Below are positions 153 through 1,005 of a stretch of DNA of 64,000 bases, piece after piece. Source of the stretch: Nitrospirota bacterium. GTDB taxonomy: Bacteria > Nitrospirota > Thermodesulfovibrionia > UBA6902. The notes under the pieces are model-generated. The model was not told the origin of the DNA. It saw only the letters and a program-made list of their open reading frames with translations, and made no database searches. A program made the position numbers and the translations under genes. Every line of letters begins with the position of its first letter. The stretch's first letter is position 1. The stretch lies in the NCBI GenBank assembly GCA_016215115.1, contig JACRLN010000014.1, positions 1-64,000 of the forward strand, given 5' to 3'.

Positions 153-181
153 TTGACAATAATGAATGATTCTGTTATAAA
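153..181 (+). promoter_or_regulatory. Sigma-70-type promoter for the PilZ-SOR gene
   Basis: TTGACA at 153-158 and TATAAA at 176-181 are separated by 17 bases, a near-consensus housekeeping promoter. The predicted start of transcription near 188 leaves a leader of about 30 bases before the ATG at 220. No operator could be recognised. Confidence 0.6.
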
Positions 182-219: not shown

Positions 220-1005
220 ATGGAAAAAAGAGCCTTTGATAGAATTCCATCGAATCTGCATGTAAGATTATGCTTTGAAAATGATATTAATTCCGGCAAG
301 CTGATAAATCTTTCCAAAAACGGCATTTTTATAAACACAAAAGTATTTTTCCCCCTGAAAACACAATTCGAAATTCTTTTGCCCCTGGAAGAAGAGATTT
401 TAAAAATTCCTGTGAAAGTCACCAGATTATCAAAAAAAGATGATATCTATGACGGGATAGGCGCTGAGCTTCTCGAATCTCCTCTAAAATATTTAGAATT
501 TGTGGATAATCAATCCATGAGTCTAAAAATAAATGAGAGAAAAATAAAGACGTTTGCATGTTCTGTTTGTAATCATATTGCTTTCGACACGGCTCCAATA
601 AATTGTCCTTTTTGTTTAGGCTCGATTGATAATTTCGCTGACAATTCCAGCGTTGTAAATATTCTGAAGAATTTTAAAATTATTACCGAATTTGAAAAGA
701 AACATTTTCCTATAATCACGGTTTCAAAAGAATATGGTTCGGACCAGGATTGCAAGCATATAGACGTCCATGTCAAGGTTGGAGAAATACAGCATAGAAT
801 GGACGTTGATGACCATATTTCCTGCATAGCTCTTTATGTAAATCATTTTCACCTAAATAAAAATTGCATCGCAAGAATTAATCTGAATTGCCATATAATA
901 ACCCCCCAGGCTACTCTCCGTCTTAATGACGCGACTCCCGGTATCCTTACAGTTATCAGCAATTGTAACGCACATGGAAGCTGGATGGCTGAAGTAAAGA
1001 TCTGA
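220..1005 (+). CDS. PilZ - rubredoxin-like - superoxide reductase fusion protein
   Basis: 261 residues in three recognisable parts. Residues 1-95 look like a PilZ c-di-GMP-binding domain: RxxxR is R4/R8 and the N-x-S-x-x-G motif is N30, S32, G35. Residues 112-135 hold a rubrerythrin-type rubredoxin/zinc ribbon with C114, C117, C129 and C132. Residues 155-261 resemble class II superoxide reductase (desulfoferrodoxin/neelaredoxin). All five iron ligands have plausible equivalents: H162 (KKHFP), H192 (IQHRM), H199 (DDHI), C249 and H252 (CNAHG). Superoxide reductase reduces superoxide to peroxide in anaerobes without making oxygen; PilZ domains bind c-di-GMP. The combination suggests either nucleotide-controlled superoxide detoxification or use of the iron site as a redox sensor; that is inference. 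No signal peptide, so cytoplasmic. Monocistronic and convergent with bioD. Confidence 0.8.
   Translation: MEKRAFDRIPSNLHVRLCFENDINSGKLINLSKNGIFINTKVFFPLKTQFEILLPLEEEILKIPVKVTRLSKKDDIYDGIGAELLESPLKYLEFVDNQSMSLKINERKIKTFACSVCNHIAFDTAPINCPFCLGSIDNFADNSSVVNILKNFKIITEFEKKHFPIITVSKEYGSDQDCKHIDVHVKVGEIQHRMDVDDHISCIALYVNHFHLNKNCIARINLNCHIITPQATLRLNDATPGILTVISNCNAHGSWMAEVKI

Follow-up and report, generated by a model that had tools for sequence, protein, structure and literature searches.

Domain architecture of the gene

The gene described here lies on the forward strand at the beginning of the window, i.e. the whole stretch of 64,000 nucleotides that was analysed. It runs from an ATG start codon to a TGA stop codon (220..1005, +) and encodes a protein of 261 amino acids, in which a PilZ domain, a Cys4 knuckle and a superoxide reductase (SOR)-like domain follow each other; this is supported by the open reading frame, by Pfam matches and by full-length orthologues. 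The three-domain architecture proposed by the sequence-only reading of this DNA was thus recovered: the two end domains pass the Pfam cut-offs, and the knuckle, which scores below its cut-off, has four cysteines that are present in 19 of 19 fusion sequences, one from each of 18 genomes and a further copy from the window's own genome.

The PilZ domain occupies residues 2-85 (223..474, +), inside the region 1-95 where it had been expected. The PF07238 match of the window protein has 33.5 bits (E 5.6e-8) and is above the gathering cut-off of 22.5; three orthologues score 34.8-41.8 bits. Both c-di-GMP-binding motifs, RxxxR (R4 and R8; 229..243, +) and [D/N]xSxxG (N30, S32 and G35; 307..324, +), are kept in every orthologue in which the region is present. 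R4 and R8 are found in 17/17 sequences, S32 and G35 in 18/18, and position 30 is either D or N, so the residues named earlier are indeed there. The proposed link to c-di-GMP via PilZ is thus upheld, c-di-GMP binding itself being predicted.

The second part is a knuckle of the rubredoxin/rubrerythrin type at residues 113-138 (556..633, +) with the pattern CxxC-x11-CxxC. Its cysteines (114, 117, 129 and 132) are the four that had been pointed out as rubredoxin-like. PF21349 gives 20 bits in the window protein, i.e. below the cut-off of 26.5, and 29.6 bits, above the same cut-off, in an unfused paralogue that consists of a knuckle and an SOR domain (termed knuckle-SOR below).

The C-terminal part, residues 156-257 (685..990, +), matches the desulfoferrodoxin/superoxide reductase family PF01880 (Desulfoferrodox) with 56.9 bits (E 3.2e-15, cut-off 22.2), which agrees with the desulfoferrodoxin domain suggested for residues 155-261. 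The scores with this profile are about 48-64 bits in the fusions vs. 93-120 bits in canonical paralogues. The narrower NCBIfam models score the window protein below their cut-offs, TIGR00320 (desulfoferrodoxin equivalog) with 14.7 bits vs. 146.9 and TIGR00332 (neelaredoxin-type SOR domain) with 40.6 bits vs. 61.9; the latter model gives 83-108 bits for the family's canonical SORs. Among the PDB sequences matching the C-terminal part the best ones are superoxide reductases, with 6gq8 on top (E 6e-5). An AlphaFold model of this domain only was of moderate confidence (pLDDT 61), and all 16 of its Foldseek matches with E<=0.001 were SORs, with TM values of about 0.65-0.72. By this model, the C-terminal domain is of the SOR fold. 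The full-length model, built from four close sequences only, was unusable (pLDDT 37).

A promoter-like element, TTGACA-N17-TATAAA (153..181, +; read from the sequence, 11/12 match), precedes the gene, its first hexamer starting 67 bases upstream of the start codon. A stricter promoter scan did not list the 153..181 element. Within the window's genus, the window gene and five other orthologues have TTGACA-N17/18-TATAAA 42-67 bases upstream, although the bases just before the start codon differ among them, which suggests that the fusion gene has a promoter of its own.

Distribution and descent of the fusion

The fusion was found in 18 of the 37 genomes of the same GTDB family, i.e. a search for homologues of the same architecture, as the sequence-only reading had advised, gave full-length orthologues in 17 other genomes. 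These are 44-75% identical to the window protein; one of them (G015) aligns only from PilZ residue 18 onward. A scan of 84,980 species genomes gave three named records with 61-75% identity, all metagenome-assembled genomes, labelled as Nitrospira japonica, Thermodesulfovibrionia bacterium and Nitrospirae bacterium; the last one is of groundwater origin, judging by its name. No full-length match was found outside the family among 396 genomes drawn from the phylum, and the searches of viral contigs and plasmid records gave no further relatives.

In the tree of the SOR domains the 19 fusions form one clade (support 99/96), which sits in a well-supported group together with the unfused knuckle-SORs of 150 amino acids; judged from the sequences, the fusion has a single origin. 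For each of the three parts (PilZ, knuckle, SOR), the window copy has dN/dS values of about 0.11-0.21 vs. G005 and G006, a range that refers to the estimable pairs, as the more distant pairs were often saturated. By these estimates purifying selection acts on all three parts.

The start of the gene is 220 bases away from a contig end, which might raise the suspicion of an assembly chimera or a misread gene. Such an origin has a negligible probability and was rejected, since the same architecture recurs full-length in 17 other genomes, the sequences fall into one clade and dN/dS is well below 1; the full-length orthologues also make chance untenable. We conclude that the fusion is real and is inherited across one family of Nitrospirota.

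A second fusion-type gene is present in the window's own genome (contig C13, locus L026, 8908-9660, -). Its PilZ part is frame-broken, with the N-terminal half in one frame and the remainder in another, and a piece inside it seems to be lost, whereas the frame of the knuckle and SOR parts is open over 217 amino acids and has retained the Asp in the altered ligand column described below. This gene is either a decaying copy or an assembly error.

The metal site of the SOR-like domain

The ligands are named here according to the SOR of P. furiosus, where we take them to be His16, His41, His47, His114 and Cys111. Five residues separate the second His from the third in the solved SORs (H-x5-H; P. 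furiosus His41 and His47). Four of the five positions are conserved in 19/19 fusion sequences each: H162 (703..705, +), the equivalent of His16; H192 (793..795, +), the equivalent of His41; and C249 and H252 (964..975, +), the equivalents of the axial Cys111 and of His114. The remaining column, that of His47, is conspicuously different. It has D in 17 and N in 2 of the 19 fusions (D198 in the window protein; 811..813, +), whereas H is found in 43 of 44 unfused relatives, which are SORs of the same family and order (25 canonical, 14 knuckle-SORs and 5 Tat-type). In other words, three His and the axial Cys of centre II are kept, and the place of the fourth His is taken by D or N in 19/19 fusions.

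The sequence-only reading had counted all five SOR ligands as present, with H199 among them, and had expected the homologues to keep all five. This view holds for H162, H192, C249 and H252, in the window protein as well as in the homologues, but not for H199 (814..816, +). The window protein reads H192-RMDVD-D198-H199, i.e. H-x5-D-H, and because of the H-x5-H spacing of SORs D198 falls into the ligand column and H199 into the next one, that of the non-ligand position His48. This next column is H in 17 fusions, R in one (G003) and Y in one (G009), and in the unfused SORs it is H, F, Y, L or W. HMM-HMM comparisons of the fusion family with three SOR sets gave the same register as MAFFT, with no gap from H192 to the next strand; the register is one set by alignment rather than by a metal-bound structure. 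A ligand role of H199 through an alignment shift was rejected on the basis of the MAFFT and the three HMM-HMM alignments.

The catalytic Lys (K161, just before H162) is present in its column in 18/19 fusions, whereas the unfused knuckle-SORs conserve it less well. Two cysteines, C216 (865..867, +) and C224 (889..891, +), are invariant in the fusions (19/19 each); in the unfused knuckle-SORs the first position is Y or F and the second is never Cys. Taken together, the positions that are conserved specifically in the fusions, as compared with the unfused knuckle-SORs, are D198, H199, C216 and C224, and more weakly F158. The way the strands pair would allow C224 a position close to the altered site.

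Proposed function and related proteins

The window's own genome has 23 PilZ and 20 GGDEF matches, rubrerythrins, pilM and one Fe/Mn-SOD. Its two Desulfoferrodox matches are both of the fusion type, and fusion-type proteins are the only PF01880 proteins in genomes of the window's genus such as G000. Of the 18 fusion-bearing genomes, 16 encode an Fe/Mn-SOD, a four-His SOR of the canonical or the knuckle type, or both enzymes. It is therefore unlikely that superoxide is scavenged mainly by the fusion, and bulk removal is probably not the job of this protein. In the other two, G001 and G031 (89% and 85% complete), no four-His SOR and no Fe/Mn-SOD was found.

No conserved operon partner of the fusion was found across genera. 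The bioD gene, identified by reading the sequence, adjoins the fusion in six genomes of the window's genus including the window itself, and in seven other genomes (L034, L035 and L039-L043) the gene downstream encodes an S30AE (ribosome hibernation) protein that carries a cold-shock domain at its C-terminus. In the window, bioD is followed by a stretch (1735-1825) with an imperfect inverted repeat (taggggca ... tgcccct), which resembles a dispersed repeat.

Our tentative reading, to which we give somewhat less than an even chance, is that the protein is a cytoplasmic c-di-GMP effector, with a re-tuned non-haem iron/redox SOR domain as its output or sensing half, and so closer to redox-linked signalling than to the routine removal of superoxide. 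The PilZ domain would bind c-di-GMP, the knuckle would hold Fe or Zn by its four Cys and could transfer an electron, and centre II would still bind a metal via H162, H192, H252 and C249. Asp198 (possibly Cys224) would replace the fourth His and thereby alter the redox chemistry. The oxidation state of the site may then be coupled, via the linker, to c-di-GMP binding or to the contact of PilZ with a partner, so that oxygen or superoxide would tune a c-di-GMP-dependent output, e.g. type IV pili, adhesion or stress physiology. This reading is favoured by the Pfam matches of both end domains, by the occurrence of the fusion in 18 genomes as one clade with motifs and knuckle Cys kept, by the purifying selection on all three domains, by a ligand change that is specific to the fusions and independent of any one alignment method, by the separate SOR or SOD of most fusion genomes and by the wealth of c-di-GMP machinery, along with pilM, in the window's own genome. 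On the other hand, the Lys column is kept as in a working SOR, two genomes show neither a four-His SOR nor an Fe/Mn-SOD, the neighbours vary between genera, and the domain model is of moderate confidence. Somewhat less probable still is the more specific version, in which the c-di-GMP receptor carries its own redox sensor of the non-haem iron type, and the loss of His and the gain of Asp and two Cys on the fusion branch directly tied the oxygen or superoxide state to c-di-GMP signalling in one protein.

A different function would be that of a working superoxide reductase, with c-di-GMP controlling via PilZ how active it is or where it is located; the knuckle would donate electrons, centre II would reduce superoxide, and Asp198 or a shifted H199 would act as the fifth ligand. 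The SOR fold, the four invariant ligands, the nearly invariant Lys and the invariant knuckle Cys are in accordance with this, as is the fact that genomes of the window's genus such as G000 have no PF01880 proteins other than the fusions. Nevertheless we consider it rather unlikely, as one equatorial His column is always D or N, H199 falls outside the ligand register and gives way to R or Y in two orthologues, and a four-His SOR or an SOD is already encoded in most of the genomes. The last point also weakens the idea of the sequence-only reading that c-di-GMP gates superoxide detoxification; its other suggestion, that the iron site would signal oxidative stress to an output governed by c-di-GMP, is in better agreement with the data. 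The loss of the equatorial His and profile scores lower than those of canonical paralogues could alternatively mean that the SOR-like domain has no redox function at all and serves on the PilZ receptor as a structural or zinc-binding scaffold or as a protein-interaction module. However, a scaffold would not need H162, H192, C249, H252, the Lys and the knuckle Cys all to be preserved across a deep divergence, though a zinc site might, and we regard this explanation as unlikely. Finally, PilZ might be an oligomerisation or docking module that does not sense c-di-GMP in this protein. Some PilZ domains are indeed described to bind c-di-GMP barely (PMC3131395), but both binding motifs are preserved in the orthologues here, which makes this very improbable.

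If the protein does act as the proposed effector, a single molecule would connect oxygen stress directly with the behaviour that c-di-GMP controls, in a lineage of Nitrospirota that has received little study. For the active site of SORs, the fusion also amounts to a natural experiment: unfused and fused SORs share a scaffold, the former with four His and the latter with three His and Asp, and the change of ligand falls on a single branch of the tree. A protein of 261 residues is enough to test either claim.

The domains themselves are known, and it is their combination, together with the altered active site, that is apparently undescribed. SORGOdb groups SORs by architecture into seven classes, Class II, III, IV, TAT, Dx, HTH-Dx and Atypical (PMC3116461), and its main text has no mention of PilZ. 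Searches of the open-access literature for SOR together with PilZ or c-di-GMP gave only papers in which, judging by counts and titles, the terms seem incidental. Within these sources the earlier statement that no such protein has been described stands.

According to the same account (PMC3116461), Dx-SOR or desulfoferrodoxin (2Fe-SOR, class I) likewise has an N-terminal Cys4 knuckle followed by SOR centre II. Its knuckle (centre I), however, is CxxC-x15-CC, whereas the fusion has CxxC-x11-CxxC, an additional N-terminal PilZ domain, Asp or Asn in one His column and two extra invariant Cys. The joining of an SOR module to a regulatory or unusual domain is shared with the HTH-Dx-SOR and Atypical-SOR classes of SORGOdb, but the regulatory domain of the fusion is PilZ and not HTH. 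A PilZ domain combined with a stress-related protein is also seen in the PilZ-DnaK of Myxococcus xanthus (PMC10313047), in which the partner is a chaperone rather than a metal/redox domain.

The closest group in the tree, the unfused knuckle-SORs of the same family (about 150 amino acids, e.g. L047), have the same knuckle and SOR parts, but no PilZ, His in the ligand column in 13/14 cases and neither C216 nor C224. Conversely, the same genomes encode PilZ proteins of a single domain (e.g. on G000:C23, 104 amino acids), which are about 47% identical to the PilZ part and have the same motifs, but no SOR part.

Unlike the fusions, many unfused knuckle-SORs adjoin trkA/trkH-like and pilMNOPQ-like genes, the names of the neighbours having been read from the sequences and not from a domain search. 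The pilMNOPQ-like genes are nearby at eight loci (L045, L046, L048, L049, L051, L052, L055 and L056); at most of these the trkA- and trkH-like genes lie in between, and often there is a SpeD/SpeE-like gene upstream. An SOR gene is thus found repeatedly with a type IV pilus gene cluster, which may point to a connection with type IV pili. One unfused knuckle-SOR (L044, G042) shows another natural ligand change, with Asn instead of the last ligand His (CSVNGSW). The SORs of L106-L109 form a long-branched clade of their own, with a Tat-signal-like N-terminus (RRDFIK) and W one column beyond the fourth His ligand. The canonical SOR genes of L067, L069, L070, L071, L075 and L112 adjoin another open reading frame of ~150-180 amino acids, the product of which ends in a rubredoxin-like knuckle (rubrerythrin-like).
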